Source: Myxococcales bacterium (GTDB lineage Bacteria > Myxococcota_A > Polyangia > Fen-1088). Taken from it: a DNA stretch of 41,965 bases. Below, in pieces: positions 9,223 through 25,600 of the stretch. The DNA lies in contig PMLB01000386.1 of NCBI GenBank assembly GCA_003158735.1, positions 21,806-63,770 of the forward strand. The letters run 5' to 3'. The notes under the pieces are model-generated. The model saw only the letters and a list, made by a program, of their open reading frames with translations. It was not told the origin of the DNA and ran no database searches. Made by a program: the position numbers and the translations under genes. Every line of letters begins with the position of its first letter. Positions within the stretch are counted from its first letter, which is position 1.

Positions 9223-9295
9223 GCTTCGGCGGACGTGGTTTTTCCATGTTGCGAACGGCCCCTCTTGCGGCCGGAGCCGTGGTAAAAATGCCGCC

Positions 9296-9862
9296 ATGAG
9301 CGGCCGTGAGCTTTTTGAACGAAACCGGGCTCGACTCCTCGATCTGCTCAAGCAGCTCGCCTACGAGGAGCGCGAGGTCATCCTCGCGTCGGGGCAGAAG
9401 AGCAATTTCTACATCGACTGCAAGCAAGCCGTGTTGAGCGCCGAAGGCCACTTTTTGGTGGGTTGGTTGTTCAACCGGGTAATTGCCGAGCATGCCCCCG
9501 AGGTGGAAGCCGTGGGGGGATTGACCATGGGCGCCGACCCGCTGGCCTCGGCGGTGGCCACGGTCAGCTACCTGGGCGGGCGACCGCTCGACGCTTTCTA
9601 CGTGCGCAAAGAGGCCAAGGGCCATGGCACGGGACAGTGGTTGGAGGGACGCAAGCTGCTTCGGCCTGGGATGCCGGTCGCCATCCTTGAGGACGTGGTG
9701 ACTACGGGCGGCTCGGCTCTCAAGGCGATCGTGCGCGCGCGCGAGTTCGGCCTCAAGGTCAGCCTTATCCTCGGTCTGGTGGACCGCGAGGAAGGTGGCC
9801 GCGAGGCATTGCAACGGGAGGCGCCGCTGCATACTCTCTTCCGACGGAGGGAGTTCATCTGA
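9296..9862 (+). CDS. pyrE: Orotate phosphoribosyltransferase
   Basis: Cytosolic enzyme of pyrimidine synthesis that transfers ribose-5-phosphate from PRPP to orotate to make OMP. The 188-residue product has SGQKSNFYIDCKQ near residue 32, GGLTMGADPLA, FYVRKEAKGHG, and the PRPP-binding loop ILEDVVTTGGSALKAI near residue 135. The frame is open upstream to 9074 only as a shadow of the coiled-coil gene; the ATG at 9296 gives the usual family start and length. Its TGA overlaps the ATG of the next gene by one base (TGATG), so the lipoprotein gene is probably translationally coupled. Confidence 0.96.
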   Translation: MSGRELFERNRARLLDLLKQLAYEEREVILASGQKSNFYIDCKQAVLSAEGHFLVGWLFNRVIAEHAPEVEAVGGLTMGADPLASAVATVSYLGGRPLDAFYVRKEAKGHGTGQWLEGRKLLRPGMPVAILEDVVTTGGSALKAIVRAREFGLKVSLILGLVDREEGGREALQREAPLHTLFRRREFI

Positions 9863-10500
9863 TGCCAGCGCGGAGGACGCGGGGGTTTGCCTTGGCCTGT
9901 GCTGTGGCGCTGGTCGGGTGTGCCCAGTCGGCTTCCAAGTCTGTCAATTTTTCCGACGCCACTCGCAACTATCGGCCGTCGGACTATTCATCGGTTTACG
10001 AAAGTTGGACACGACACGCGAAGCTGTGGCAGGAGGTGGGCACAGTCATCGAAGCGTGGGCGACCTACAAGAGCTGGGATTTTCGCCAGGCCTATGTGTC
10101 GTACTACGCCAGCATCTATGACTTGTCGGACAGCGATCGCGCCACGCTCCTGCGCTCGCAGCTCGAGGCGTCGCGGGCCAGTCACGAATTCCATGTGGCG
10201 GTACAGATGACCACCGACAAGTGGAACGATCTCGATCGCAAGAATTCGCCCTGGCGGGTCACTCTGCTGGACGCCAGCGGGGGCGAACTGGGGCCCACTT
10301 CGATCCAGGCGGTGAAGCTACCTGAGCTGTACGAGAGCCAGTTCTACCCCAGCCGCACCGAATTCACGCGCACCTATGAGATCAGCTTCGCCCGCACCGG
10401 CAGCGGCGGGCAGCTTTTTTCGGGCCCGGCAAGCGGTCGTCTCGTCTTGCGGTTTGCCAGCCCTGCGGGTCGGATTGAGCTAGTCTGGGATTCGAAGTAG
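9862..10500 (+). CDS. Putative lipoprotein of unknown function
   Basis: A 212-residue protein with a lipoprotein signal peptide: basic start (MPARRTRG), hydrophobic core, and lipobox VALVGC with Cys20. The mature part is rich in Trp and Tyr (YESWTRHAKLW, WATYKSWDFRQAYVSYYA), then a beta-rich second half ending in ELVWDSK. I do not recognise the family. The start codon overlaps the pyrE stop. It probably sits in the outer or inner membrane facing the periplasm. The next gene converges from the minus strand after 51 bases. Confidence 0.8.
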   Translation: MPARRTRGFALACAVALVGCAQSASKSVNFSDATRNYRPSDYSSVYESWTRHAKLWQEVGTVIEAWATYKSWDFRQAYVSYYASIYDLSDSDRATLLRSQLEASRASHEFHVAVQMTTDKWNDLDRKNSPWRVTLLDASGGELGPTSIQAVKLPELYESQFYPSRTEFTRTYEISFARTGSGGQLFSGPASGRLVLRFASPAGRIELVWDSK

Positions 10501-10551
10501 GAATTGTGCCGGCCGTTCGGAAAGCTGCGTCGGAGATCTGATAAGGGGGGC

Positions 10552-12951
10552 TTAGGCGTGTCGCTTGGATGGCCTGCCGCCGGGCGAGATCTTCCCGTTT
10601 CGTTTGCTGGCAGGCTCATCGAGGTCAGCAAAGTTGTCCTCGGTCTCGCGCTTGTAGAGGTCGGCCTCGCGGGCAAAGAAGTCGCTCTCGATGGCGCTGA
10701 AGGCACCGCTGATGCGACGCTTGCCGGTCTGCGCTGCGCTGTCGTCTGACGAGCGGGGCGTCGGCCGGGCGGCGGCAGGGGCGGTTCGGTCGTCACTGGT
10801 TCCGCGGACCTGGCCTTGGCCCGAGCCTGCGCCCTGGGAAGTGGTTCGTGGCTCGGTCGCGTCGCCCAGCCCGTGCGTCGTTGCGGTCACCGACTCAGGC
10901 TTGGGCTCTTCGAGCTTCTGCACCTCCGCCACCAGGGCCGGATCGAGTGCGACGGAGATGCGCTTCGCGGAAGTCTTGAGCGCGTTTGCCGACCAGCGCG
11001 AGGACGACGAAACGGAAAGCGTGCCGGTTACCCTGGCGGCGTGGCCTGACTTTGGTGAGGCGGAGGCCCCCACGGGGGGCGCGGCGCTGCTGGCGTCAGA
11101 CGGTGCAGCCATGGGCGGCGGGCCAAATTCAGCCTGCAGCGGCCCTGCTGACGTCGGGGGACCGATGGGTGTGGTGGCCTTTTCCAGGCGGCCGAGCTCA
11201 GCCGCCAAGACAGGATCGAGCTCGACGGAAACGCCCTTCTTCATGCTCTTGGCTGAGCCTGATCGCTGCGCAGGAGCGACAGAAAGGGTGCCCGTCATCC
11301 TCGCGGTACTGGCCCCATCGCCTGGGCTGGTCCCGGCCGTCACAGTTTGCGCAGCTACGGAAGATGCCGCCAGAATGACCGACGGTGGGAGGGAAACGAC
11401 AGGTGAAGCCATCTTCGCAATCGAGTTGGTCTCGGAGGGTAGCCCTGGATCGACCTCGATGGAATTGCCACTGCCCGTGACACGCGGGCCCCTGTTTGAG
11501 CGTTGTTGCCCAGAGGAGGGAGCTACCTGCAGTGTGCCGGTCACACGACCGCTGCGTACCGGAGATTCAGCAGGCACTGACTCGACCGGAACCGCAGCTG
11601 AGGCTGGCGCGGGTGCGGCTTCCACGAGGGCCACGTCGATGGTAACCGAGGGCCGGTCTCGCCTGTCAGACTTGACCTGACGTCGGTCAGCGGCCACGCT
11701 CACGTCAATGCTGCCGGAGGCCCTGGCCGTGCTTGCCCCGGCAGCTTGCGCGAGAGACGCTGCAGCGGTGCCAGGCGCGCCAGCCGCTGGCGTCCCGGCC
11801 ACCGCCCTGCCGACGATGGGCGTGCCCAGGGCCGGCGTCTGAATCGCTGCGCGCCGTTGGCCTTTTCGGCGATTCGGCTCTCCGCTGCGCACGTCGGCTT
11901 GACCGAGGCGTAGGGGCGTCGGTCGTTGCGACAAGGGAAGCACCTGGCTGTCCTCGGAACTCGCGATGCGGGCCGTTTCCCAGAACTTCTCCAAGGGTGG
12001 GGTGGGCGCGGGGGAGCTCTCCTGGGGCTGGCACCGGGTCAACCCGCCGAGATCCACCAGGCGGGTGAGGATGCGTACGGTGTCGAACACGCGGAAGGGG
12101 CTCTCGTCGATGATGTCAGTGAGTGTGCGTCGTCCATCGCACAGACGAAGCACCGGCGTGACTTCGGAGGGCACCGTGGACTTGGCCAGCTTGTCTTCGT
12201 TCTTCCCGTACACCGACGAGGCAGGCCCGATTCCTTGCATAGCGTGGGTGTAGTCGCGCACAAAGCGTTCCGCCTCGTCCATGATCTGGTCAAATCGCTG
12301 GTTGAACTGTGTCCGTCGGGCCACGGCGCGCAGGCGCAACTCGATCTTGGCGTCTTCCCACAGCAGGAGATGGTGAATGGCGGGCGGGCCTTGCAGCGAC
12401 CCCAACTGGGCTCCAGCTATCTCGCCCTCGGAGAACAGGATCTCGCCCCGACGATTCGCGCGTTCGACTTGCAGCACACCCGAGCGCAGCAGTCCACTCA
12501 TCACGCGGATGAGAGAGAAGAATCCAAATTCGGCCAGCGAGCCGTCGATTCTTGCCTCGCGGCCTTGCGCTTGCGCATCGTGGTCGTCCAGCGACACGAG
12601 AATTCGGCTGGCCGCGATCACGTCACGTACAAAGACCGGCGTGGGCAGAAAATCGATCGACCCGCATTCGAGCACGCTTGGGCGCAGGCTGGCAGGGCCG
12701 AGCACCAAGAGAGGCAGGGTGCGAGTTTCTTCGCTGGCGCGAAGCTGGCGAAGCAGTGTCAGGGTTTTGTGGTAGGGCGCGCGCGCGGCAACCACCGCGA
12801 TGTCCGCAGCCGACGCCTTGATCAGGAAAGCCGCTGTTTCCGGAGCCGCGCACGCGGTGCTGCGCCAGGAAACGCCCTGGAAGCCGTAGACAAGCGATTC
12901 GAGTCCCTTGAGATCTGAGTCAACCAGTAGCGCTGCGAATGTGCGGGCCAT
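10552..12951 (-). CDS. DUF4388 (PATAN) protein with degenerate receiver domain and repeated tail
   Basis: A 799-residue cytoplasmic signalling protein. Residues 1-125 look like a response-regulator receiver (LLVDSD at strand 1, then a Rossmann-like pattern). The phospho-acceptor Asp is absent (IAVVAARAP) and the conserved Lys is Thr (IDFLPTPV), so it is a pseudo-receiver. Residues about 130-340 match DUF4388/PATAN (IDGSLAEFGFFSLIRVM, GEILFSEGEIAGAQLG). The rest is Ala/Pro/Ser-rich with three units of R(V/M)TGTL followed 24-28 residues later by (V/L)DPxL, near residues 468, 550 and 640. It ends with RISGAFSAIE and an FFAREADLY segment. Such proteins are frequent in Myxococcota and their partners are mostly unknown. 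The ATG at 12951 starts the receiver strand. tRNA-Cys lies 140 bases upstream on the same strand. Confidence 0.82.
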   Translation of the reverse strand: MARTFAALLVDSDLKGLESLVYGFQGVSWRSTACAAPETAAFLIKASAADIAVVAARAPYHKTLTLLRQLRASEETRTLPLLVLGPASLRPSVLECGSIDFLPTPVFVRDVIAASRILVSLDDHDAQAQGREARIDGSLAEFGFFSLIRVMSGLLRSGVLQVERANRRGEILFSEGEIAGAQLGSLQGPPAIHHLLLWEDAKIELRLRAVARRTQFNQRFDQIMDEAERFVRDYTHAMQGIGPASSVYGKNEDKLAKSTVPSEVTPVLRLCDGRRTLTDIIDESPFRVFDTVRILTRLVDLGGLTRCQPQESSPAPTPPLEKFWETARIASSEDSQVLPLSQRPTPLRLGQADVRSGEPNRRKGQRRAAIQTPALGTPIVGRAVAGTPAAGAPGTAAASLAQAAGASTARASGSIDVSVAADRRQVKSDRRDRPSVTIDVALVEAAPAPASAAVPVESVPAESPVRSGRVTGTLQVAPSSGQQRSNRGPRVTGSGNSIEVDPGLPSETNSIAKMASPVVSLPPSVILAASSVAAQTVTAGTSPGDGASTARMTGTLSVAPAQRSGSAKSMKKGVSVELDPVLAAELGRLEKATTPIGPPTSAGPLQAEFGPPPMAAPSDASSAAPPVGASASPKSGHAARVTGTLSVSSSSRWSANALKTSAKRISVALDPALVAEVQKLEEPKPESVTATTHGLGDATEPRTTSQGAGSGQGQVRGTSDDRTAPAAARPTPRSSDDSAAQTGKRRISGAFSAIESDFFAREADLYKRETEDNFADLDEPASKRNGKISPGGRPSKRHA

Positions 12952-13033
12952 TTTTCTGCTGGAAAGCCAGGACCGAGAAGCCGACCGAATCCAGTATAAC
13001 CAGAGAGTGGAGCCAGCACACGCTGATTAGGTC

Positions 13034-13081
13034 GTGACGGGCCTACACGGACGGGTGCGCGTAGTGTGTGATCCCCGTCAC
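13034..13081 (-). repeat. Inverted repeat just downstream of tRNA-Cys
   Basis: Eight-base arms, GTGACGGG (13034-13041) and CCCGTCAC (13074-13081), are separated by 32 bases. On the minus strand it begins 10 bases after the tRNA 3' end, so it could stop or process the tRNA transcript. No T-run follows, so a standard intrinsic terminator is not supported. Confidence 0.4.
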
Positions 13082-13090
13082 TCTTTCTTG

Positions 13091-13162
13091 AGGTGCCGCC
13101 CGGATTTGAACCGGGGAATAAGGGTTTTGCAGACCCTTGCCTTACCACTTGGCCACGGCACC
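13091..13162 (-). tRNA. tRNA-Cys (GCA anticodon)
   Basis: Read on the minus strand, a 72-base cloverleaf folds. The acceptor stem pairs GGTGCCG with CGGCACC. The anticodon arm is AGGGT-CTGCAAA-ACCCT with anticodon GCA. The T arm contains GGTTCAAATCC, and the discriminator base is U, as expected for cysteine. The CCA end is not encoded. It stands alone between the DUF4388 gene and the hydrogenase-like operon. Upstream on the minus strand, TAGATA may serve as a weak -10. Confidence 0.96.
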
Positions 13163-13369
13163 GGACTTCCTCGCCCGCGTATCTAGCACAAACTCAGCGG
13201 AAAGCGGCAAACCTATCTCTGGGCTTGCCGAGCGGGCCGCGCAACTGGCGGTCGGTCTGCACGGGTGAAGGGGGTCGCGATGCCTGAACATTTGAGTAGC
13301 CGCGGCCATGGCTCGCAAGAGGGGCGAGCGCGGCCTGTGGCGCTCCCGAGCGGAGCCGAAGGTCAGGGG

Positions 13370-14119
13370 CTACTCGATACGGCCTAGCAGGCGGAGCAAT
13401 CCGTCGAGGATGGTGAGCGGGTGGGGCGGACAGCCGGGAAGGTAGAGATCCACAGGAATGTCAGCCGGGATGCCGTCCCCACAAGTAGATGAGCCAGCAA
13501 ACGGGCCGCCGCTGATGGCGCAGGCGCCGGCGGCGATCACCAATTTGGGTTCCGGCACCGCTGCCAAGGTCTCGCGCAGAGCCAGCGCCATGTTCACCGT
13601 GATCGGCCCTGTGACCACGACGCCGTCGGCGTGGCGGGGTGAGGCCACAAATTGAATCCCGAAACGCCCGATGTCGTAGACCACGATGCCGGTGACGTTG
13701 AGGTCGGCCTCGCACGCGTTGCAGCCTCCGGCCGAAACCTGGCGTAGCTTGAGAGAACGGCCGAAGATCCTGCGCATCTTTCGGTCAAGCGCGGCGGCTA
13801 GCCTCATCTCGCGGCCGGAAAGCAGCAAGTCGCCTCGCGTGCGTGCGGCGAGTCGGAAGTCGTTGGTGAAGCTGATGGCGCCTTGGTCACAGGCCGCGGC
13901 GCAGGCGGGGCAGAAGAGGCAGGCGCCCAGATCCAAACGCAGCGGATCGGTCTTGATCGCTGCGGTTGGGCAGGCATCCGCGCAGCCACGACAGCCAGCC
14001 TGGCAGCGAGATGGGTGGAGGGCGGGCCGGCCGCGGAATCGCGGTGGTAGCTCGCTCTGACCTTTGGGAAAAGCGATCGTTCGGTAACCTTGGCGAAGTC
14101 GCTCCCACAGACGACGCAT
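13370..14119 (-). CDS. Ehr/hydrogenase-4-type small subunit fused to a 2x[4Fe-4S] ferredoxin
   Basis: Last gene of the operon, 249 residues. The N-terminal part is ferredoxin-like with two four-Cys clusters (C39, C43, C46, C50 and C67, C70, C73, C77). The rest is the NuoB/HycG-type 20-kDa subunit with its four [4Fe-4S] cysteines: GGCNACEADL (C133, C136), GACAISGGPF (C199) and PGCPPHP (C230). It thus combines HyfH-like and HyfI-like functions, passing electrons along three iron-sulfur clusters towards the large subunit. The first cluster spacing is CxxxCxxCxxxCP, one residue longer than the common form. The ATG at 14119 overlaps the TGA of the upstream gene by one base. It faces the cytoplasm. 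Confidence 0.9.
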   Translation of the reverse strand: MRRLWERLRQGYRTIAFPKGQSELPPRFRGRPALHPSRCQAGCRGCADACPTAAIKTDPLRLDLGACLFCPACAAACDQGAISFTNDFRLAARTRGDLLLSGREMRLAAALDRKMRRIFGRSLKLRQVSAGGCNACEADLNVTGIVVYDIGRFGIQFVASPRHADGVVVTGPITVNMALALRETLAAVPEPKLVIAAGACAISGGPFAGSSTCGDGIPADIPVDLYLPGCPPHPLTILDGLLRLLGRIE

Positions 14120-15660
14120 CAGAGATCGTGCCCCGCGTACGACAGGTTGAAGCTCTTGTTGCACAGCGGGAAGTCGGAAATCTGACCGCCCCGCATGGCC
14201 AGGGCCAGACCCAGCCAATTGTGAAAGGAAGGATCGACAACTTTGTACGCGGCGAGATGGCCTCTGTCGTCGGTAGCCGCCATATGCGCGATCTCGCCCC
14301 GCCAGCCCTCGACCAGGGTGACCGCCAGCGCGTGCGGGCGGGCTTGGCCAAGGGCGACGTTCCGGGCGCCGTCGGGCAACGTCTCCACCAGCTCGCGAAC
14401 CGAGGCAATCGAGTGGTCGGCTTCGCCTCGTCGGATCTGGGCTCGTGCCATCACCCCGCCCGAGGACGTGGCGGCGGGCTCGATGCTCGCACGACGGTAG
14501 ATTCCCGCAGGATGGTCACGCCGCACGTCGCGGTCACAGCCGCTGGCGCGGGCCGCAACGCCCACCAAGCCGAGTGTCTCGGCCATGGCGGTGGTCACCA
14601 CGCCGGTACCCTCGAAACGCGATACCACGGCCGAGCTTTGGAAAACCACGTCGGCAATGTGGCGCAGATCGGTGCCAGCGGCCCGCAGGCGTAGCAGAAA
14701 GGCTTCGCGGCCCGCCACCGGCAGGTCGAAACGCACGCCGCCCGGGATGACCAGGCCGCGGCCAAAGCGGCTGCCACAGATCTCCAGCGAGAGATTGAGA
14801 AACTCGCCGCGCAGTCGGCCGAACCAGGAGGCGCCGGGCAGGTAGCCCACGTCGTTGCATAGGGCGCCGAGATCGCCGACGTGGTTGGCCAGTCGCTCCA
14901 GCTCCAGCGCGATGCCTCGCATGGCCTCGGCTTGAGGCGGCGGCGCGGTGCCGGTCAGGGCCTCCATCGCCATGGCGTACGCCATGGCGTGACCGACGCT
15001 GGTGTCGCCCGCAATGGTCTCCGCGATGACCAGACGGCGCGCCGGCGACGAGTGGAGCAACAAGGCTTGGGCGTCCCGGTGTTGGTAGCCGAGCTGGATC
15101 TCCAGGTGCAGGACGGTCTCGCCGTGACACTGAAAGCGGAAGTGGCCGGGCTCGATGATGCCGGCGTGCACGGGGCCTACCGCCACTTCGTGGATTCCGG
15201 GGCCGTCCACCCGGAAGAAGGGATACCCGTCGGGACCCACGCGTGCGTCGCAAGGCCCTTCTAGTTCGGCGTGACGGCGGAGAGGCTTGGGCCAGGGGTG
15301 GCCTTCGGGAACAATGCCGTGTTCTTCCAGGATCTCGCGCTCGAAGGCCTGGGCCTGCGGCAGGTCCGGCGTCAACGCTGGGTAGCGATTGTCGAGAGGA
15401 ACGTCGGTGCAGAGCAAGCCGAGGAGTTGGCTCTTATCGTCGGCGAGCACGGCGAGCAGCACCCGGCCGGGCGTCCGTCCAGGCAGGACCGCTATCGCGG
15501 CCAGCCGCGCTTTGGCCGAGCAAGCACTGAGAACCGCCCGTCGAAAGCTGTCCATCGATACCGAGGGGACATCAAATCGTGCAACGGCTTCGCCGTTGCG
15601 GACGGCGCGCATGGGCGGGGCCATGGCCGAGGGAAGTACCGTGCGCGCGTCGCCGTCCAT
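14119..15660 (-). CDS. Large subunit (fused NuoC/NuoD-like) of an Ehr-type complex, NiFe cysteines missing
   Basis: A 513-residue homologue of HycE/HyfG. The first 120-150 residues are NuoC-like (FEREILEEHGIVPEGHPWP). The remainder is NuoD/large-hydrogenase-like (EVAVGPVHAGIIEPGHFRF, LHLEIQLGYQHR). Catalytic NiFe hydrogenases carry two CxxC motifs. Here the first site reads ETIAGDTSVGHAMAY (about residues 213-230) with no Cys. The second, C-terminal site reads DFPLCNKSFNLSY with one Cys near residue 497. It therefore cannot hold a normal NiFe centre and fits energy-converting hydrogenase-related (Ehr) proteins. The ATG at 15660 overlaps the preceding TGA by one base. The long open frame upstream of it overlaps the preceding gene and is a shadow. 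Confidence 0.88.
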   Translation of the reverse strand: MDGDARTVLPSAMAPPMRAVRNGEAVARFDVPSVSMDSFRRAVLSACSAKARLAAIAVLPGRTPGRVLLAVLADDKSQLLGLLCTDVPLDNRYPALTPDLPQAQAFEREILEEHGIVPEGHPWPKPLRRHAELEGPCDARVGPDGYPFFRVDGPGIHEVAVGPVHAGIIEPGHFRFQCHGETVLHLEIQLGYQHRDAQALLLHSSPARRLVIAETIAGDTSVGHAMAYAMAMEALTGTAPPPQAEAMRGIALELERLANHVGDLGALCNDVGYLPGASWFGRLRGEFLNLSLEICGSRFGRGLVIPGGVRFDLPVAGREAFLLRLRAAGTDLRHIADVVFQSSAVVSRFEGTGVVTTAMAETLGLVGVAARASGCDRDVRRDHPAGIYRRASIEPAATSSGGVMARAQIRRGEADHSIASVRELVETLPDGARNVALGQARPHALAVTLVEGWRGEIAHMAATDDRGHLAAYKVVDPSFHNWLGLALAMRGGQISDFPLCNKSFNLSYAGHDL

Positions 15661-17138
15661 CACGGTAGTGGCCTCACGATCCGGGCGGCCTGTTCCAGAA
15701 TGTCGCGCAGGGTTTGCGGCATCCACACCCCCAGAAGCGCCAGCAGGGCCAGCGGGAGCACGACTGCGACTCCGTCGAGAAGCCCCGCTTTTTCGGCCAT
15801 GGCTTCGCGTGGAGGCGTGCCCCACGCCATGGCCATGGCGTGGCCGAAAATGCCGATGAACGCCGTGCCGGCGGCGGCCAGAAAGACCACCAGTACCGCG
15901 ATGGCGCGCGCATCGACTGCGGCTTTCGCAATTTGCAGTTCGCTCATGAATGTACCCGAGGGCACCACACCGATGAGGCCCAGCAGAGCCAGCAAGAGGC
16001 CGGTACCCCACAGCGGCGCGGCCCGCAGAGTGCCGCGTAGCGATTTCATTTCGTGGGTTTCGTAGATTTGGCCCAGCCGGCCCGCACAGAAAAAGCCTGC
16101 GGTCTTACCCAGCGAATGGTTGGCGGCGTGAAACAGGGCCGCAAAGGTGCCCAGCCCGCCCAGGCCCAGCCCGATCGCGATGATTCCCATATGCTCGACG
16201 CTGCAGTAGGCGAGCAAGCGCTTGGCGTCGCGCTGAAAGAGAATGAAAGCGGCCGCGACCACCATGGAGATCGCCCCAAAGAGAGCGAGCAGCCGCAGCG
16301 ACCAGCCGGTCCCGCCCGTGGCGGCTTCCACCACCGGGATGTAGCGCATGATGCAGTAGAGAGCGGTGTTCAGCATCACGCCCGAGAAGATCGCGGACAC
16401 CGGCGCAGGCGCCTGGCTGTGGGCATCGGGCAGCCAGGTGTGCATGGGTGCCAGACCCACCTTGGTGCCGTAGCCGACCAGCAGGAAAATGAAGCCGAGC
16501 TTGAGCGGAGAGGGATCGAGCAGCGGCGCCACCTCGCGCAGCCGCGTCCACAGCATGGCGTCCGATGGAACCGGCAAGGCGCGGGTGGCCGACGCGCCCA
16601 CCAGCAGCGTGCCCATGAAGGCGATGGCGATGCCGACCGAGCAGATCACCAGGTATTTCCAAGTGGCCTCCAACGACTCGCGCGAACGGTGCAGGCCGAT
16701 GAGGAAGGTCGTTACCAGCGTGGTCGACTCGATGCCAACCCACATGAGCCCGAGGTGGTTGGATAGAAACACCAGGGTCATGGCAGCCAGCGAGCCAAAC
16801 CACAGGGCGCCAAAACGGCGTGCCGTGCGACGGTCCATTGCGTGTGAGCTGCAACGAAAATAGCGACCCGCAAACACAGTGCTCAAGGCAAAAACCAGCG
16901 CCAGCAGCAAGAGGTGATAGGCGGAGAGTGCGTCGACAAACAGCCAGCCGCCCACGGCGTGCAAGGGCCCGGAGCCGAACACCACAGCCGCCAGGCCGGC
17001 CATGGCCAGCGCCGTGGCCAGCACGCCGGCCGTGAGCACGGCGAATACCGCGCGCGCTGATCTCAGAAGCAAGCACAGCCCCGCGCCGGCCATTGGCATC
17101 GCCAGCACCACAACCAGAAAATTTGCCGGTTGCTCCAT
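15660..17138 (-). CDS. Proton-pumping membrane subunit, NuoN/NuoM/HyfF-like
   Basis: A 492-residue antiporter-like membrane protein with about 14 hydrophobic segments. Family signatures include YGTKVGLAPMHTWLPDAHSQAPAPVSAIFSG (given here in parts: GTKVGLAPMH, TWLPDAHSQA, PVSAIFSGVML), HLGLMWVGIE with the conserved Glu, and RLLAYCSVEHMGIIAIG. It belongs to the membrane arm that moves ions in complex I and group 4 hydrogenases. The ATG at 17138 begins two bases after the stop of the NuoK-like gene. The gene's TGA overlaps the large subunit start. Order and coupling match hyfF in hyf-type operons. Confidence 0.9.
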   Translation of the reverse strand: MEQPANFLVVVLAMPMAGAGLCLLLRSARAVFAVLTAGVLATALAMAGLAAVVFGSGPLHAVGGWLFVDALSAYHLLLLALVFALSTVFAGRYFRCSSHAMDRRTARRFGALWFGSLAAMTLVFLSNHLGLMWVGIESTTLVTTFLIGLHRSRESLEATWKYLVICSVGIAIAFMGTLLVGASATRALPVPSDAMLWTRLREVAPLLDPSPLKLGFIFLLVGYGTKVGLAPMHTWLPDAHSQAPAPVSAIFSGVMLNTALYCIMRYIPVVEAATGGTGWSLRLLALFGAISMVVAAAFILFQRDAKRLLAYCSVEHMGIIAIGLGLGGLGTFAALFHAANHSLGKTAGFFCAGRLGQIYETHEMKSLRGTLRAAPLWGTGLLLALLGLIGVVPSGTFMSELQIAKAAVDARAIAVLVVFLAAAGTAFIGIFGHAMAMAWGTPPREAMAEKAGLLDGVAVVLPLALLALLGVWMPQTLRDILEQAARIVRPLP

Positions 17139-17140
17139 GG

Positions 17141-17794
17141 TCAGCCCTTGAGCGTGTTGAGCTGATCCACGTCGATGTGATCGAACTCGTGGTTGATTTG
17201 CAGGATCACGATGCCCATCACGAAGACGCCAACCAGCAGGTCGAGAAGTAGCCCCAGCTCGACCACGAAAGGCATCTGCGCGGCCAGGCTCTGGCCGAAA
17301 ACATAGGCGCCGTTTTCGATGAGCAGGTATCCGATCACCTGCGTGATGGCTTTGCGCCGGCTGACCAGCACGAAGAAACCAATCAGGAAGGTGGCGAAGG
17401 CGGTGGGCACGAATAGGTGCGTGCTTCCAGCGGCGGGCAGGGCAAGCACAGTGGCCAGCCAGAACGAGATCCCGATCAGGACACCAGCCAGCAACACCGA
17501 AAGGTGAAGACTGACGAAAGGCTCGACGTCTCGGCGCACCCCCGCATCGCGCAGAGCGCGCATGAGCAAGCGCGGAATGAGAATTGTCTTCAGCGCCAGC
17601 GCGCTGGCCGCCATGATGAGGACGTGGGCTAGATGGGCCGAGGGCGTCTCCAGATAGTGCACCACGGGCAGAAGCGCCAGCGCCGCGCCCTGCAACGCAG
17701 AGGCGCGCACGCAAGCCGCCAGACGGCTGGTGTAGACGACATAGAGATCGAGCGCTAGCACTGCGAGCAAGAGAAAATCCGCGTATCCGGTCAT
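17141..17794 (-). CDS. NuoK/HyfE-like membrane subunit
   Basis: A 217-residue membrane protein with about six to seven helices, corresponding to HyfE, a NuoK-like subunit. Recognisable parts are SALALKTILIPRLLMRAL, RRKAITQVIGYLLIENGAYVF (the conserved Glu-containing helix, given without its last residues) and VELGLLLDLLVGVFVMGIVI. It ends with a polar HEFDHIDVDQLNTLKG tail. It forms part of the ion path between the NuoH-like and antiporter-like subunits. The ATG at 17794 overlaps the stop of the NuoH-like gene (ATGA), and the next gene starts two bases after its stop. A longer frame reaching 18688 is a shadow of the NuoH-like gene. Confidence 0.87.
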   Translation of the reverse strand: MTGYADFLLLAVLALDLYVVYTSRLAACVRASALQGAALALLPVVHYLETPSAHLAHVLIMAASALALKTILIPRLLMRALRDAGVRRDVEPFVSLHLSVLLAGVLIGISFWLATVLALPAAGSTHLFVPTAFATFLIGFFVLVSRRKAITQVIGYLLIENGAYVFGQSLAAQMPFVVELGLLLDLLVGVFVMGIVILQINHEFDHIDVDQLNTLKG

Positions 17795-18711
17795 GGCGTG
17801 CCTCGATACAGCAGCACAGCCAATCCCAAAGCTGCGATGACCGAGGCCCCGACCAAGAACTGCGGCACCCGCAGCAGGCGGATGCGAGCGGTTACCGATT
17901 CGACGATGCCCACTAGCACGGCCACCGCGACGGCTCCGGCCACGAATACGAGGGTACCCAGTGCACCTCCGGCAGGCGGCACGGGAAGAACCATGTGCAC
18001 CAGCAAGCTGGCGAAGAGAAACAGCTTGAGCGCGCTGGCGTAGAGCACGAAGGCCAGGTCGGGGCCGCCGTGATCCAACACCATCACCTCGTGAATCATG
18101 GTCAACTCGAGGTGGGTGGTGGGATCGTCGACGGGAATGCGTGAGTTCTCCGCCAGCAACACAGCGAAGAGAGCAACCGCGGCTGCGGGCAGGGCCGGGT
18201 GCGCGGGCCCCCAGGTTTGCCACGGCAGGGAGGCCCACGCCTCGGCGAAGGAGGCGCTGCCCGCGGGTAGGCAGACAATGGCGAGCGCCAGAAAAAGCGC
18301 GGGTTCCGCCAGGGCCGAGAAGGCGGCCTCGCGGCTGGCTCCCATGCCCTCGAAGCTGGAGCCGGTGTCGAGTGCGGCGGCCATGGTGAAGAAACGGCCG
18401 AGTCCGAGCAGATAGGCGAAGAGAATGACGTCGCCCGAAAATCCCAGGGGCGCGGTCGCGGCGCCCAGTGGGGTGAGAAGCCCTGCCGCCAGTGCGGCGG
18501 CCAAGGTCACGATGGGCCCAGCGCGGAAGAGCCAAGTTGTGGTGCGGCTGTAAACCGCGCCCTTGTGCAGAAGCTTCCACAGATCGAGGTAGGACTGCCA
18601 CAGCGGCGGCCCCTTGCGACCGGCGAACCAGGACTTGGTGCGGGTAATGATGCCGACCAGCAGGGGCGGCAGCGCGAGCAAGATGCATAGGTGAAGGACG
18701 ATGGCGGTCAT
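17791..18711 (-). CDS. NuoH/HyfC-like membrane subunit
   Basis: A 306-residue membrane protein with about eight helices, the quinone-site/proton-input subunit of complex I-like enzymes. Conserved loops include RKGPPLWQSYLDLWKLLHKG near residues 32-51, GMGASREAAFSALAEP near 122 and the acidic loop ENSRIPVDDPTTHLELTMIH near 200. It anchors the soluble arm to the membrane arm. The ATG at 18711 lies one base beyond the preceding stop, and the gene's TGA overlaps the NuoK-like start. Whether this subunit binds a quinone here is unknown; in group 4 hydrogenases it does not. Confidence 0.92.
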   Translation of the reverse strand: MTAIVLHLCILLALPPLLVGIITRTKSWFAGRKGPPLWQSYLDLWKLLHKGAVYSRTTTWLFRAGPIVTLAAALAAGLLTPLGAATAPLGFSGDVILFAYLLGLGRFFTMAAALDTGSSFEGMGASREAAFSALAEPALFLALAIVCLPAGSASFAEAWASLPWQTWGPAHPALPAAAVALFAVLLAENSRIPVDDPTTHLELTMIHEVMVLDHGGPDLAFVLYASALKLFLFASLLVHMVLPVPPAGGALGTLVFVAGAVAVAVLVGIVESVTARIRLLRVPQFLVGASVIAALGLAVLLYRGTP

Positions 18712-18712
18712 G

Positions 18713-20674
18713 TCAGTGCCTCATGGCTCCGGACAATTGCCACAAGACCAGCGCCACCAAAGTGGCCAGGATGTAGACCAGATAGAGCTGCATCCGTCCG
18801 TGCTGAATCACTCTCAGACGGCGGGCTGCGCGCAGAAAATGGCGCCAGGCCGGCACCAGCATGCGCTCACCCGCCATGTCACCCACGTGCTTTTCGAAGT
18901 GAGCCTGGGTGGGAAACATGCCGTCGGGCAGTCCGCCGTCGGTTCGGATGTGCAGCACGCTGGAGAAAGGGGCGAGCACGGGGTCGGCGAACGATGTGGC
19001 CGTGTACTGCATGCGCGCTGTCGCGTGAGGGTAGGCGCAACCCCAGGTCGCGGCTTGGGCAACCGGGCGGGTTTTGAGCAGCCGGGCTCGCAGCAAGGCC
19101 AGGGTGGCGATCAAAGCGACCAGCACTGTGGCCAGCAAGCTGATGTTGAAGAGCGGGCCCAGGTCGGCGGGCAGGGCCTCTCCGCTCAGACACACGGCCG
19201 CGGGCGCCACCAGGGCAAGTGCGCCGGCGGGCCACAGGCCGATGGCCAGGCAAGCCAAGGCTGCGGCGAGCATGGGCGCGCGCATGGCGAGTCCGACTTC
19301 GTGAGCGTGGCGGGCGTGGTCGCTGCGCGGTTCGCCCAGAAACACCACGCCAAAGACCTTGACGAAACAGGCCGCCGCCAAGCCGCCGATGAGAGCTAGG
19401 GCCGGCAAGGCGACCAGCGCCACCACCGCGCCGGTCGCGGGCAGGGTGGCCCCGGCGCGGAATGCGCCTAGGTAGATGAGCCACTCGCTGACAAAGCCGT
19501 TGAGCGGGGGCAGGCCACAGATGGCGACCGAACCCACCAGAAAGGCTGTTGCAGTCTCCGGCATCCGTCGGTAGAGCCCACCCAGCGAGTCGAGATGCCG
19601 CGTGCCCGACCCTTGCAGCACGCTGCCTGCGCCTTGAAACAGCAGCCCCTTGAAGAGACCATGATTGAGGGTGTGCAAGAGCGCGCCCGCATAGCCGAGC
19701 GTGGCCAACGCGGGGTGGCCGTAGCGCTGACCCAGAAGGCCGAGCCCGATGCCGAGCGCGATGATCCCGATGTTTTCCACGCTGTGATAGGCGAGCAGGC
19801 GCTTGAGGTCGTGCTGAGCCAGCGCGTGGATCACGCCCGCCACGCCGGAAATCGCGCCCACCAGCACGAAGACCGCGCCCCACCACGCGGGCGGCGGGCC
19901 GAGAAAAGGCAGCACGCGCAGCAGGCCGTAGATGCCCATCTTGATCATCACGCCCGACATCACCGCCGAGACGTGACTGGGCGCGGCCGGGTGAGCGTCG
20001 GGCAACCAGATATGCACCGGCCAGAAACCGGCCTTGGTGCCGAAGCCGCCCAGGGCGAGCAAGAAGGCAAGGTTGGCCAGACCGGCCGCCGCGATCCCGA
20101 TTCTCTTCATGGCGGCGAAGTCAAACGAGCCGGCCGCGCGTCCCAGCAGGGCGAAGAGAGCGATAAGCAGAATCACGCCCACGTGGGAGGCGATGAGATA
20201 GGTCGTGCCCGCACGCCGGACTTCGTCGCGGTCGTTCTCAAAGGTCACCAGGAAGAACGACGAGAGAGACATGGCCTCCCACGCCAGCAGGAACAAAACC
20301 CCATCCCGCGCGAGCACCACGCCCAGCATAGCCGCCAGCAGCAGGTTGAAGAAGACGACGGCCGGTGCCACCCGCCGCTTTCCCAGGTAGGCGCGCAGAT
20401 ACCCCGCGCCGTAGACCGCAGCCAGGCCCGACACGACGCAGATGCACAGGGCGAAAAAAGCTGACAGCGGATCGATCCCCACGCGCAACTCGCCAAGCGG
20501 CAGTGGAACCCGAGCCCGCCAGACCAGCGTGGCCCCGCTGCGCAGGGCCACGAGTGAAGCCGCCCCGCCCAGCAGCGAGGCCGCCACAGCGCTCGCGGTG
20601 CCTACCGCCAGGGCGGCGCGGTCCCTACGCCCCAAGATCGCGGCGAGTAGGGCGCTTCCAAAGAGAAGCGCCAT
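18713..20674 (-). CDS. Proton-pumping membrane subunit, NuoL/HyfB-like; first gene of Ehr-type operon
   Basis: A protein of about 653 residues with some 16 helices. Motifs of the antiporter-like family include FLLAWEAMSLSSFFLVTFEN, GGFGTKAGFWPVHIWLPDAH, VSAVMSGVMIKMGIYGL and LLAYHSVENIGIIALGIG. The C-terminal part carries extra hydrophobic segments and the cytoplasmic HIRTDGGLP segment, as in HyfB. The start is uncertain. The ATG at 20674 lacks a ribosome-binding site and removes part of a likely first helix. An in-frame ATT at 20701 has AAGGAA at good distance upstream and would add nine residues. A promoter candidate lies at 20730-20757. Confidence 0.88.
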   Translation of the reverse strand: MALLFGSALLAAILGRRDRAALAVGTASAVAASLLGGAASLVALRSGATLVWRARVPLPLGELRVGIDPLSAFFALCICVVSGLAAVYGAGYLRAYLGKRRVAPAVVFFNLLLAAMLGVVLARDGVLFLLAWEAMSLSSFFLVTFENDRDEVRRAGTTYLIASHVGVILLIALFALLGRAAGSFDFAAMKRIGIAAAGLANLAFLLALGGFGTKAGFWPVHIWLPDAHPAAPSHVSAVMSGVMIKMGIYGLLRVLPFLGPPPAWWGAVFVLVGAISGVAGVIHALAQHDLKRLLAYHSVENIGIIALGIGLGLLGQRYGHPALATLGYAGALLHTLNHGLFKGLLFQGAGSVLQGSGTRHLDSLGGLYRRMPETATAFLVGSVAICGLPPLNGFVSEWLIYLGAFRAGATLPATGAVVALVALPALALIGGLAAACFVKVFGVVFLGEPRSDHARHAHEVGLAMRAPMLAAALACLAIGLWPAGALALVAPAAVCLSGEALPADLGPLFNISLLATVLVALIATLALLRARLLKTRPVAQAATWGCAYPHATARMQYTATSFADPVLAPFSSVLHIRTDGGLPDGMFPTQAHFEKHVGDMAGERMLVPAWRHFLRAARRLRVIQHGRMQLYLVYILATLVALVLWQLSGAMRH

Positions 20675-20729
20675 CGAGACGAGTAGAAGTTGCAGAGAAA
20701 TCGACGGTGTTTCCTTGAAAACGAAGGTA

Positions 20730-20757
20730 CTTGTACGCCAAGTTATCGGCCTGTCAA
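20730..20757 (-). promoter_or_regulatory. Candidate promoter of the Ehr-type operon
   Basis: On the minus strand a perfect TTGACA (20757-20752) is followed after 16 bases by TACAAG (20735-20730), four of six matching TATAAT. Transcription would start near 20723, about 50 bases before the ATG and 22 before the ATT candidate start of the first gene. Confidence 0.5.
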
Positions 20758-20818
20758 GGGTGGACTGCGGTACAAGCGACGCTGCGAAACACGCGTTGGT
20801 GGAATATGATGCAAAGTC

Positions 20819-22636
20819 GTGCCTTCCTTGCTTCGCCTCGGGAAGTACCAACTAGACCGCCGGCTCGGGCCCGAAGGAGTGGTCGAGAGTTTCCGCGCCC
20901 ACCCGGCTGATTGTGTTTCACATGCGGCAGGCGACTCCGAGCTGTTCGTGGTCAAGCTGCTGCGTGCGGATCGCGTGCAGCGGCAGGCCTACCCGCGACT
21001 GGCTTCGCGCTTTCTTGCGGCAGGCCGGCGGCTGCTGGCCATTTCACCTGCGCACTCGGGTCGGGTATTCGACGTCGGCGAAGAAGCGGCGGGTGCCTTC
21101 GTCGTCTCGGGCTGGGTGGCCGGCGTGGATCTCGTCGGGCTGGTCCAGGCGGCTCAGCAGCAAACAGCACCCGGCCGCACGGGGGTGGACGCCGCCGTGG
21201 TCGGCGTGGTTGGCGGTCAGATGGCGCGGGTGCTCTCGCTCGCGCACGCGGCCGAGCCGCCGTTTTTTCATCTGGGTCTCTGTCCCGGGAACGTCCTGGT
21301 CACGCCCGCGGGCGAAGTCGTGCTGCGGGATTTCGGCTTGTTTGCATCCGTGCGCGGGCTGGTCGACCACCCTATCGAGAAGTGGTTGTTCGTCGCGCCG
21401 GAACTCGTGGGTGCGGCGATCGGCCCCGACACGCTCAGCGGCTGCGCGGCGGCGGACTTCCATTCTTTGGGCGCTCTCTTGCACTTCCTCCTCGGTGGCA
21501 AGCCTCCTTTCGAGGCGAGGTCGCTGGCCGAGCTTTCCGACCGCATGCGCGAGCCCGTGCACGAACTTGCGGGCGTACCGGCCGCTCTCAGCGCGGCCAT
21601 CCGCGCCCTGACCGCGCTCCATCCCGAGGACCGGCCCCGCGGCGCCAGTCTGTTGAGCGAAGCGCTGGCAGGCCATCCGGCCCCGGCCGAGGCCGAGTCC
21701 CCTGTCACCACTAGGAAGCTCAAGAACGATGGGGCAGGGGACCACGCCGCTGTTTTGGCGCCAGCGGGTCACGTGGCGAAGCGGCCGGGTCGAACGGGCG
21801 TCGCCGCGCGTGGAGCGGCCGCTGGGCACGGCCGCTCGGTGCGTTCGGGCTGGCTGGTCGCACTGGTGGCATTGCTGGGCCTTCTTCTTGTGACGGTGTT
21901 CGGCTTGCTTGCCTTCCGGCTGGCTCGCACCTTCTCTGCCAAGCGCGCCGCTCAGGGTGTCGCCATCGCACAGCGCCGAGCTGGCGAGACTCCGCCCGTC
22001 GAACCCCAACTCAAGTCGCATTCACATCAGCGCTCCCCGGAGTCGTGGCTGCCCGCTGTTCCCACCCCTCTGCCCGACGCGGGCGCGAGACGCGTCGCGG
22101 ACGCCGCTCTGGCGCGGGCATCCGCGAGCGATGACATACCGGTGTTCCCGGCCGGGCGCTTTGTCGTCGAGGAGTCGAACACACCGCAGCCTCAGCGCGT
22201 GCCGAATCACCTGTTCGTCGACACCCAGCCCCACGGCGCGCAGGTCTGGGTTGAGGGCGTTTGGAAAGGTAACACGCCGCTCGACGTGCTGGCCGGCGCA
22301 GGTGGCAAGCGGCTGGTGCTGGTGGCTGCGGGATATCACATGTTCCGCACTAGCATCGATGCGCGCGAGGGAACTCTGATCCGCCTCGCGCTCGATCCGG
22401 TTGCAGGCCCGGTGCGCGGCGACGCTTTTCTCAACGTGGTTTGTCGCACATCGGGAAGGTACCCGGTGTTTATTGACGAGGTCGAGACCGGGCTGCTTTG
22501 CCCCGTCCACCTGGTGCCGGTGGCGGCCGGAACACACCGGGTGGGCGTGTTCGTACCGGCGGAGCGCAAGCTGGAGGCGGTGGAGATCACGGCTCCTGCC
22601 GGCCCCAAGCCCCTCGATGTTCATCTCGCGCCGTGA
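20819..22636 (+). CDS. Serine/threonine kinase-like pseudokinase with membrane helix and PEGA domain
   Basis: A 605-residue protein. Residues about 8-270 have a Hanks-type kinase fold: a degenerate Gly loop (LGPEGVV), the ATP-anchoring Lys in FVVKLLRAD (about residue 46), and DFG at 171. The HRD-x(4)-N catalytic loop reads HLGLCPGN, so the catalytic Asp is Gly153. A low-complexity linker leads to one membrane helix at about 344-366 and an extracytoplasmic part with a PEGA domain at about 464-527 (VDTQPHGAQVWVEGVWKG) and a second beta-rich repeat. It probably senses or scaffolds without normal kinase activity. The GTG at 20819 is the only start that keeps the kinase N terminus; nearby ATGs are out of frame. 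It is divergent from the Ehr-type operon. Confidence 0.84.
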   Translation: MPSLLRLGKYQLDRRLGPEGVVESFRAHPADCVSHAAGDSELFVVKLLRADRVQRQAYPRLASRFLAAGRRLLAISPAHSGRVFDVGEEAAGAFVVSGWVAGVDLVGLVQAAQQQTAPGRTGVDAAVVGVVGGQMARVLSLAHAAEPPFFHLGLCPGNVLVTPAGEVVLRDFGLFASVRGLVDHPIEKWLFVAPELVGAAIGPDTLSGCAAADFHSLGALLHFLLGGKPPFEARSLAELSDRMREPVHELAGVPAALSAAIRALTALHPEDRPRGASLLSEALAGHPAPAEAESPVTTRKLKNDGAGDHAAVLAPAGHVAKRPGRTGVAARGAAAGHGRSVRSGWLVALVALLGLLLVTVFGLLAFRLARTFSAKRAAQGVAIAQRRAGETPPVEPQLKSHSHQRSPESWLPAVPTPLPDAGARRVADAALARASASDDIPVFPAGRFVVEESNTPQPQRVPNHLFVDTQPHGAQVWVEGVWKGNTPLDVLAGAGGKRLVLVAAGYHMFRTSIDAREGTLIRLALDPVAGPVRGDAFLNVVCRTSGRYPVFIDEVETGLLCPVHLVPVAAGTHRVGVFVPAERKLEAVEITAPAGPKPLDVHLAP

Positions 22637-22640
22637 TGGA

Positions 22641-25600
22641 CTACTCCAGGACTTCGGTCCAGTTGAAACGTGAGAACTGACCAGAATAGGGCGATGCCTG
22701 CACCGCACTGCCTGCGCTGATCGCGTCCGGGAGGAAGGGCGTGACGTCGTCGAACGTGGTGGTACCGCCGAACACGTAGACGCGGCCGCCTATGATCACA
22801 GGCGAGGTGGCCGGGTTGGTGCTTGTGACCAGGTAACCCAGCCGCTCGGTGACCGCCCCGGACGTCATTTGGTGGATGGTCAGGTAGGTCTTGCCTACAC
22901 CGCAGACATCCGACGGGGCGGCGTACCACATGGTCACTACCTCGAATCCATTCCCGTCGGCCTTCAGTATGCCCAATGGCGTCGAGGTGGGCCGGGCGGT
23001 GACGGGCATTTGCGTGTCGCAGACCACGCTGCCGTCGGACGCCAGGTGAGTCACGCCGCAAATCTGGTTGGTGCCCGTGGTGAGCACGATTTGGCCACCG
23101 GTGCCCCACGTGGTGTCCTTGACCACGCCCGTGATGTTTCCGTTGCTGTCGGCTTGGGCCAGCTCCTTGGCAAAGATCATCTGCGAAGCCGGCAGGCTGA
23201 CCGTGTCCAGGTCGAGGTTCGAGTTGGTCACCTGGACCAGGTAGATTTCGTGCGCGTGACTGGAGGCCACGCTGTCGCGGTCGAGTTGCACCACCGTGGG
23301 GGAGAAGTGCAGCGGTTGGTTGCAGGTGAAGTTGTAGGCCAAGCTGAGGCCGCCGGCCAGGGTGTAGCGCCAGAGCTGTCCCGCCGTGTCGCCGAAGTAG
23401 GCTGCCACGAGCTTGTCGTTCTGGGCCCTGGCAAAGTCGCGCGCGGTCGCCACGTCGGTCAGCGCCGCGTATTCCTGCGCGCAGGTGGCGCCCGGCGACA
23501 CGCTGTTGGTCGCGATCACGTTCCCGGTGATGGCCGACGCCGTGACCAGGGTGCGCCCCTGGGTTGTGCTTCCATCGGAGACGGCGTAGCCAGAACTGAA
23601 GATGAGACGGTAGTCGTTGAGACTGGTGGTCTTGTTGAGCAGGAACGCAGGCAAAGAAATCGTGTCGCCCAAGACTTGGTTGTAGGTGTCTGCGCTGGCG
23701 CCGACACCGGTGTGCCATTGCACGGTGACGGGAGGGTCGTTGAGTGCGTTGGTGCCGAATGGGTTGGTGACGTCGAGCATGAAGGTCTCGGCTCCACCGT
23801 AGCCCTCTGGCATCAGGAGCAGTGTCTTCCACACCGCCGTGCTGTCGTCGGTACAGCCCGAGACACACAGGCTCTTGACCTTGGGCGAGTCGGCCAATCC
23901 GAAGATGTGATTGTAGGGGTTGAGATCCTGTCCGCCTTGTGCGTACAGCCTGCGCAGGTTGGTGAGAAAGTCGGGTGGGATGAAGGCAAAGGCTTCGCTA
24001 CCAGCGGAATACGTGGTGGTGCCCACCTTGGTGTCTTCCAGGAAGAAGGCGTGCAACATCATGTCCGACGAGCCCACGTAGATGAGATGGGGTCGGTTCA
24101 TGCACTTGAGGAAGAAGTTGTGTCCGCCCGGCAGCGCCACATCGCCCGGGCTGGCCACGTCGATGGGCGTGGAATTCACGATGGCGCCTAGGATCGCAGG
24201 GTTGTTGGAAGCCGGATTTCCCAGGGCCCACTGCGCCACGGCCTGGGCTTCATCCGCGGTGGCGCCCATGCCCAGCGCAGCCAGCGCCGCCGCGTTGGTG
24301 ATGGCCCCGGTCGAAGCGTTGACCTGGATCTTGACCATGTTGGTGCCGTCCCAGGTGTAGACCCTGCGGTTCATCCAGTTTGCGGTATTGGAGAGCTGCG
24401 TGCCCGCGTCCCAGGACAGCACAGGTGTGGTGCCCGCGACGTTGTAGGCGTACAGGTGCCCCTTCCAGGAAGGAAACTCCATGCGCGAATCGAGCGCGTA
24501 CTTGCCCTCGACCACCGTGATGGCTTGCTGAGTGCCCGCCGAGGTGCTGCCAGCTGATGAAGAATAGTTGCCCTTAATCGCGGTGTAGACAGCCAATTGC
24601 AAGGCGTCCTCAAGCTGGTCTTCACTGGTGGCCAAGAAAGCGGTGCCGGAGCCGCCGGCCTTGGCCACGTTGTTGTTGGCCGCCGCGGTCGGGCCAGCGC
24701 TGGCGTCGCCCGAAAATCCCACCACAAAGACCGTCACGCCCAGGTTGTGCTTCAGATCGTAGGCGGCCAGGACCGACTTGCACTTGCATCCGGCGGTGGC
24801 CGGGTTGTCGGCGGAGCAGGGTGTATCGTCGCAGATGTTGTTGCCCTGGCTGTCCACGTCACCTGGGCCGTTGGCCTGGCCGTCGGTGATGAGCAACGCG
24901 AAGTTGCTACGACAGGAAACGGAGTCAGCTGGGATGGTGAGGGACGGGCTGGCGCTGGTGTAGCCGTTCTTGACCGCCTTCATGTAGTCATAGGCGCTGG
25001 TTTGCGGGGTCTTGGCCACGTCGTTCTCCAGCGTGCAACCGGTGGGGGTGCCGTAGTAGGTAATCAGCCCGCCGTCCGCAGCGGGGGCCATTTGAGCGGT
25101 GATGGCCTGGGCTGCAGCCAGTGCGTTTGTCGGGCTATCAGAGGTATCGAGGAAGGGCGTGAGCTGCGTGTCCCAGCGCGCGCCGCAGCTGGAGCTACAA
25201 GCAGAGCCACAATTGGCTACGCTGATAGGAGGAGCGTCCCCGCCGTTGTAATAGTTGGTCAGCGGCGTGTAGTAGGTGTAGTTGCTGCCATTGACGGTGA
25301 TGTCGTGGCCGTCGTAGGTGTCACGCACGAGCAGGGTCGACGACGTGGTCTGGGTGGTTCGGTCGTACTGGTAGTAGCTTCCTTGGTAGGCCCCCCAGCC
25401 CAGGTTGTTGGGCATGTTGCACGAGTCGCCACAGAAGTCGACATCGTAGCGATCCCAGGAAGACCAGCCCTTGCGCACGCGATAGCGACTGTCAGCGGTG
25501 GCCCGCAGGGTCATCTGGTGGCCGGAAATCGTGCAAGTGGCGGAGGGGCCGCCTATGTGCGTCTGGCGATTCCAGGTATAGCAACCCGCTCTGCGCAATT

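Follow-up and report, generated by a model that had tools for sequence, protein, structure and literature searches.

Conserved replacements at the former NiFe site of an energy-converting hydrogenase-related (Ehr) complex from a Myxococcales bacterium

Energy-converting hydrogenase-related (Ehr) complexes form an already published family, named in eight papers (PMC6349859, PMC10284858, PMC7894505, PMC8691401, PMC6688271, PMC6728331, PMC10432482 and PMC13194489). In the literature searched, we found no assignment of a substrate or function to Ehr. Described systems close to it include the Ehr complex of Geobacter sulfurreducens (GSU0739-0745), the HycE- and HyfG-containing hydrogenases 3 and 4 of Escherichia coli (group 4a), complex I (NuoCD/NuoB), with which Ehr shares its fold and modular plan, and the sulfane reductase MBS of Pyrococcus furiosus, a NiFe-less, ferredoxin-fed and ion-pumping complex (PMC7684303), as Ehr would be. 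Here, we analyse a stretch of 41,965 nucleotides from a Myxococcales bacterium (assembly GCA_003158735.1, contig PMLB01000386.1, positions 21,806 to 63,770; hereafter "the window"), in which six touching or overlapping open reading frames (ORFs) on the minus strand (20674-13370) form an operon of the order HyfB-C-E-F, large subunit, small subunit. Profile searches matched its products to the NuoL/HyfB, NuoH, NuoK/HyfE, NuoN/HyfF, NuoCD and NuoB families, in agreement with the gene content read from the sequence in an initial annotation. The operon encodes an Ehr complex, as that annotation had also proposed: it specifies the same kinds of subunits as its Geobacter counterpart, lacks the NiFe-binding cysteines and groups with Ehr of Geobacter and Geomonas.

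The large subunit, EhrL, is a NuoCD/HycE-like protein of 513 residues (14119-15660, minus strand; PF00346, PF00329). Alignment with E. coli HycE, HyfG and NuoCD places A217, T220, S507 and G510 at the positions of the NiFe ligands C241, C244, C531 and C534 of HycE, so that all four ligands are replaced and neither of the two NiFe-binding CxxC pairs of a group 4 [NiFe] hydrogenase is present. At the first pair, whose replacement had been recognized in the initial annotation, ETIAGDTSVGHA of EhrL aligns to DRVCGICGFAHS of HycE, with A217-G-D-T220 (15001-15012, minus strand) in place of the ligand motif; the second pair is replaced by S507-Y-A-G510 (14131-14142, minus strand). The further claim that one cysteine of the second pair survives in DFPLCNKSF has to be corrected, since this residue, C500 (14161-14163, minus strand), occupies a non-ligand position seven residues ahead of the ligand column, where HycE has Ile, the intact relatives from the same genus have Val, and intact relatives overall have Val or Ile. 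A scan of the whole protein did not reveal any CxxC, which disposes of the possibility that the ligand pairs lie elsewhere in EhrL.

The replacements were followed through large subunits from related genomes (L004-L019), from 80 named loci that are part of at least 567 confirmed matches of a scan, from plasmid records and from 30 loci in 210 genomes of the same class; after removal of near-copies, 117 of the 125 ligandless proteins were counted. The 80 scan loci were recruited through the peptides HAG[IV]IEPG and EI[QSE]LGYQH (residues 165-172 and 187-194 of the window protein), and invariance inside these is therefore partly selected; neither peptide covers the ligand columns or the C-terminal motif. 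Residue 217 is Ala in 104 rows, Ser in 11, and Cys and Val in one each, followed by Gly at 218 in all 117 and Asp at 219 in 115. Residue 220 is Thr (96), Ser (14) or Ala (5) in a total of 115 rows. At the second site, Ser507 is found in 116 rows, and Tyr508, Gly510 and the Asp-Leu pair at 512-513 are each found in all 117. A cysteine occurs at a ligand column in a single ligandless row (L051). Replacements this close to fixation across 117 non-redundant relatives without ligands mean that the former NiFe site was rebuilt under selection rather than left to decay. Pairwise ratios of nonsynonymous to synonymous substitution rates (dN/dS), calculated against two genomes of the genus, show purifying selection throughout the operon, at 0.18-0.23 in EhrL and 0.05-0.17 in its five companions. 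A fixed set of cysteines acting as a new metal site was considered and ruled out, as C178 (106/117), the Ehr cysteine C500 (105/117) and C509 (96/117) are conserved without any of them being invariant; the clade of the window differs from most Ehr in having Ala at position 509.

EhrL stops at the residue corresponding to HycE R537, that is, at the end of mature HycE, and has no extension for a maturation protease; we take HycE to be cleaved after residue 537. The hydrogenase part of HycE comprises residues 182-537 (PMC9474812). The extension is missing from all 117 ligandless relatives but also from the intact relatives L109-L112, so its absence alone is no proof of NiFe loss.

An AlphaFold2 model of EhrL (72 sequences; mean predicted local distance difference test score, pLDDT, 90.4) had HycE as its best solved match (7z0s_E; Z score 46.9 over 499 residues, root-mean-square deviation 2.5), followed by 49-kDa subunits of complex I (Z up to 43.7 over about 353 residues). 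We also calculated a tree of 65 large-subunit rows with the ligand columns left out; its Ech-like rows come from the genomes behind the loci, without named MbxL/MbsL, CooH or EchE references, and three Geobacteraceae, without G. sulfurreducens itself, are included. All ligandless rows and four intact relatives from the genus of the window form one clade (support 100/99), which joins HycE/HyfG (99/94) as the nearest group outside Ehr, and the group 4 rows stand apart from NuoD (100/99). EhrL is thus placed, as anticipated, outside both NuoD and the ligand-bearing hydrogenases and together with its relatives from Geobacter and Geomonas, to which it is about 50% identical and with which it shares AGDT and NKSFNLSY.G.DL. 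Because the tree separates the group 4 rows from NuoD, the loss of NiFe in Ehr appears to be distinct from that in complex I. Within the ligandless proteins, independent losses were examined on account of L139, a non-plasmid member of the tree group labelled "Ehr_plasmid", which stands beside intact hydrogenases (99/95); a single ligandless clade is not rejected (approximately unbiased test, p 0.37), so that NiFe may have been lost once or several times within the clade.

The surroundings of the vacated site were mapped by way of the functional residues that PMC9474812 names for the site of HycE. EhrL E170 (15151-15153, minus strand) corresponds to HycE E193, the loop Glu to which a role as proton gate is ascribed there. 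Among the remaining residues of the proton route, H284 and E437 of HycE correspond to H260 and E413 (each 117/117) and R395 to R371 (116 rows, Lys in one). In the canopy, R478 is matched by R454 (117/117) and S283 by N259 (Asn in 106/117), and D529 is replaced by N505 (Asn in 104 rows, Asp in 12, Ser in one); Trp (W453) takes the place of the Pro of the hydrogenase PRG motif in 110/117. Ehr thus shares its proton route with HycE/HyfG and differs from them at the four NiFe cysteines, at the Asp of the canopy and in having no C-terminal extension. Complex I differs in other respects: its loop motif GPxHPxTHG, with the quinone His, is replaced by the hydrogenase-type GPVHAGIIEPGHF, and the small subunit has CxxC at the proximal cluster where complex I has adjacent cysteines, so that Ehr has neither the loop His for the quinone head group nor the CC motif. 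In MBS, the loop Glu is gone, two NiFe cysteines are retained and the proximal cluster is open-coordinated, with a shortened loop (PMC7684303), and Ehr is in the opposite state on all three counts. Because of this mapping against HycE, complex I and MBS, the pocket is predicted to match none of the three, be it the hydrogenase site, the canonical quinone site or that of MBS, with its proton supply kept. The range of candidate acceptors is narrowed as well, since canonical sites for quinone and for sulfane sulfur both become less likely.

A comparison within the genus provides a further view of the complex. The Ehr operon is present in three of seven genomes (that of the window, G001 and G005), and the other four (G002, G003, G004 and G006) carry an intact relative whose large subunit, 38% identical to EhrL, contains CGVC and CYSC; the two versions were found together in none of the seven (completeness 76-93%). 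In a DNA search with window positions 9000-24000, G001 and G005 were syntenic with the window, and in G003, G004 and G006 the flanks of the operon lie side by side, leaving a clean empty site near tRNA-Cys (L204, L205 and L206) at the place of segment 13300-20800. Only 17 bases separate the equivalents of window positions 13299 and 20801 in G003; matches end at 13244 and resume at 20775 in G004, and end at 13162 and resume at 20801 in G006. The flanks are on two contigs in G002. The three genomes with the empty site hold their NiFe-bearing relative at another location. A further intact relative, L197 (CGVC, CYAC), comes from a different class of the same phylum. Together with L109 (4110-5852, minus strand), it places four NiFe cysteines in Ehr-like surroundings (GPIHAGIIEPGHF, DFPLVNKSF), representing rare intact relatives of Ehr. 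These proteins (L109-L112 and L197) resemble the window in gene set, in the stretches just named and in an identity of about 38%, and are distinguished from it by CGVC plus CYSC or CYAC, by PRG instead of WRG and by a C-terminal CTDR.

The absence of hyp and formate dehydrogenase (FDH) genes, noted in the initial annotation, stands for the window, where HypA-D and HycI queries had no match and Pfam searches of 18 ORFs gave no FDH, but not for the genome, a 6.5-Mb draft of 467 contigs (82% completeness), which has hypD on contig C325. Since three ORFs on its contigs C378, C451 and C282 also show both ends of the large subunit of a NiFe hydrogenase, the lack of hyp genes around the operon is no proof on its own. 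Among the 210 same-class genomes, for which 90% completeness was required and to which the genome of the window was added, 41 have a match at E <= 1e-40. All 30 that were read residue by residue, among them that of the window and G041, are ligandless, and eight of these lack a HypD match (G021, G024, G060, G067, G074, G080, G110 and G135), which would speak against a need for Hyp maturation in the family, whereas the genome of the window has hypD. The remaining 11 comprise the ligand-bearing G002 and ten unread ones, three of which (G068, G183 and G198) are without HypD.

The small subunit, EhrS (249 residues; 13370-14119, minus strand; PF01058, PF12838), consists of an N-terminal dicluster ferredoxin domain fused to a NuoB-like domain. 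As first annotated, both sets of cysteines are intact: eight ferredoxin-type cysteines (residues 39-77; 13889-14005, minus strand; 74-91 of 97 rows per Cys), expected to bind two [4Fe-4S] clusters, and the four proximal-cluster cysteines C133xxC136, C200 and C230 (13430-13723, minus strand; 93-95 of 97 rows each) in hydrogenase-type spacing. The membrane arm is made up of EhrA, a HyfB/NuoL-like antiporter subunit (653 residues; 18713-20674; PF00361, NF005086), EhrB, a HyfC/NuoH-like anchor aligned with HyfC, HycD and NuoH (306 residues; 17791-18711; PF00146), EhrC, a HyfE/NuoK-like subunit (217 residues; 17141-17794; PF00420, NF008556), and EhrD, a HyfF/NuoN-like antiporter subunit (492 residues; 15660-17138; PF00361, NF005044), all on the minus strand. 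The start of EhrA is uncertain, as the ATG at 20674 enters the family profile about 11 positions in and the true start may be upstream. On NuoM numbering, EhrA keeps E144, K234, K265, H348 and E407 and has Asn at H322, and EhrD keeps E144, K234, H322, H348 and E407 and has Asn at K265, as does E. coli HyfF; we compared these residues for the roles that we take them to have in the transmembrane helices of NuoM.

The kept iron-sulfur cysteines, proton route and antiporter residues favour electron transfer to an acceptor with ion pumping, as the initial annotation had suggested, and make a ferredoxin-fed, ion-pumping reductase the most likely function of Ehr. In full, we propose that Ehr is a sister of the HycE/HyfG-type hydrogenases that has lost its NiFe ligands, rebuilt its pocket and now uses ferredoxin to reduce an acceptor there while pumping ions, a reading to which we give an even chance. 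Electrons would come from a donor of low potential, most likely reduced ferredoxin docked on EhrS at its fused ferredoxin domain, and pass through the two [4Fe-4S] clusters and the fully ligated proximal cluster; a small acceptor, bound directly where NiFe used to sit and ringed by D219, N505, S507, R454 and E170, would receive them. The acceptor would be protonated through the kept Glu/Arg/His route, and a conformational change relayed by EhrB could make EhrA and EhrD translocate H+ or Na+; in reverse, an ion gradient could reduce ferredoxin. The scheme also draws on the ligand columns and invariants of the 117 rows, the missing C-terminal extension, the tree, the fold match to HycE, the HypD-free genomes and the dN/dS values. 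It is the donor, the reduction of the acceptor in the pocket itself and the coupling with its direction that we infer in this scheme. Several points weigh against it. The invariance of E170 (117/117) is partly a result of choice, as this residue lies inside a recruiting peptide of the 80 scan loci, although it is invariant in the remaining rows too. The small subunits of several relatives have four or five of the eight ferredoxin cysteines or none, and the plasmid rows L120, L121, L123 and L124 are among those with none or one; ferredoxin input is therefore likely for the complex of the window and would not extend to the whole family. Finally, neither a partner gene nor a substrate or activity was found for Ehr: ORF clustering in 99 loci did not reveal any electron-transfer gene conserved beside the operon, in a survey where most single neighbours are unnamed and a partner varying between genomes would be missed.

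Among other explanations, Ehr could be a ferredoxin:quinone oxidoreductase with the head group of a quinone in its empty pocket, just as the lost NiFe site of complex I became its quinone site (PMC9474812). The EhrL model indeed has the fold of the 49-kDa subunit, and the canopy Asn that the same source names for complex I has its counterpart in N259. However, the quinone His loop and the adjacent CC are replaced as described, the position of the quinone Tyr is Tyr in only 90 of the 117 ligandless rows, and Asn mostly stands in for the canopy Asp that complex I retains; a UbiA-family gene, detected in 15 of 16 Ehr genomes tested, is non-discriminating, as all 14 control genomes were positive too. 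We therefore consider a quinone reductase unlikely. Reduction of sulfane sulfur or polysulfide would have its precedent in MBS, the NiFe-less, ferredoxin-fed relative of known function (PMC7684303), yet MBS has lost the Glu that Ehr keeps, retains two of the cysteines that Ehr has lost and leaves open a proximal cluster for which Ehr has the full CxxC spacing, which makes this function very improbable. Least credible is a defunct hydrogenase that drift is eroding: EhrL has lost its NiFe ligands, and a 2026 paper calls the Ehr complex of G. sulfurreducens non-functional (PMC13194489), but the 117 rows, from many phyla, have fixed new residues where the ligands stood, and dN/dS values lie at 0.05-0.23 across the operon. 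Rebuilding under selection, as deduced from these sequences, contradicts the statement of that paper.

Two further alternatives were considered. An FDH-linked chain with formate as the donor (FDH-Ehr) has been proposed for Margulisbacteria and Saganbacteria (PMC6349859), and Ehr subunits of G. sulfurreducens are more abundant in formate-grown cells than in hydrogen-containing conditions (PMC7894505). We nevertheless regard it as improbable for the complex studied here, given that Pfam scans of 18 window ORFs gave no FDH, that the window has no HycB-like match of the kind expected for a formate hydrogenlyase, that the three molybdopterin matches of the genome are all on other contigs, one of them on the NuoD contig, and that no FDH neighbour is widely conserved in the 99 loci. 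The only widespread extra gene there encodes a protein with HTH_17 and PTS_EIIA_2 domains (for example, L027:4246-4914), found in 41/99 loci and directly upstream of HyfB in 33 of the 78 with enough upstream DNA, which suggests control of Ehr by a phosphotransferase system-like signal. This gene, the intact antiporter residues of EhrA and EhrD and a role in pH suggested for the Ehr of Methylacidiphilum (PMC6688271) would suit a redox-silent or redox-gated cation/proton antiporter that serves pH or ion balance and uses its soluble arm only as a sensor. However, the gene is absent from the window and is not found upstream of the operon in its clade, and the proximal-cluster cysteines and the proton route to the pocket would be needless in a pure antiporter, so that we think such a function quite improbable.

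In the window, the upstream neighbour of the operon is a Ser/Thr kinase with a PEGA domain on the opposite strand (20819-22636), and tRNA-Cys and a DUF4388 protein (10552-12951) lie downstream; counterparts of the two proteins adjoin the operon in G001 and G005, and those of a Cys-rich predicted protein of 1539 residues without a Pfam match (22641-27260, minus strand) are found near it. The NuoD of the genome is on a contig other than that of the window. Sigma-70-type promoters and terminators showed no excess over shuffled sequence, and the RNA fold past its last gene was unremarkable (z 0.06). In L086 and L100, the operon is followed by a glyceraldehyde-3-phosphate dehydrogenase gene, further members of whose family are present in L074 and L088. 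Plasmid 3 of Variovorax sp. PBL-E5 carries two Ehr-like operons that differ from each other and are separated by about 3.4 kb (L119:6806-14090 and 17502-24686). A Rhodococcus plasmid operon (L121:5951-13239) has the small subunit first and the large subunit last, presumably the gene order of Mycobacterium tuberculosis Rv0082-Rv0087. The complex encoded by the latter has been called the EHR complex (PMC6728331).

To the published family, our analysis adds the fixed set of replacements, the kept proton route with its canopy Asp-to-Asn exchange, Ehr genomes free of HypD, and the alternation and empty site within a genus. More broadly, and so far only as a possibility that falls short of being probable, Ehr may represent, within the complex I superfamily, an active site without metal that arose separately from that of complex I. 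It would combine the hydrogenase proton gate and a fully ligated proximal cluster with A-G-D-T, S-Y-x-G and the canopy exchange and so reduce an acceptor that is neither H+, quinone nor sulfane sulfur; its alternation with an intact NiFe version (three versus four genomes, none with both) would then mean that the two may share one energetic role with different electron sinks. Ehr occurs in many phyla, as seen in the scan and the tree, and has also been reported in M. tuberculosis (PMC6728331). The conserved replacements provide a short list of residues for mutation, and a genus in which genomes with the NiFe complex occur alongside genomes with the NiFe-less one, three of the former showing an empty site, offers a natural comparison of the effect of this swap.

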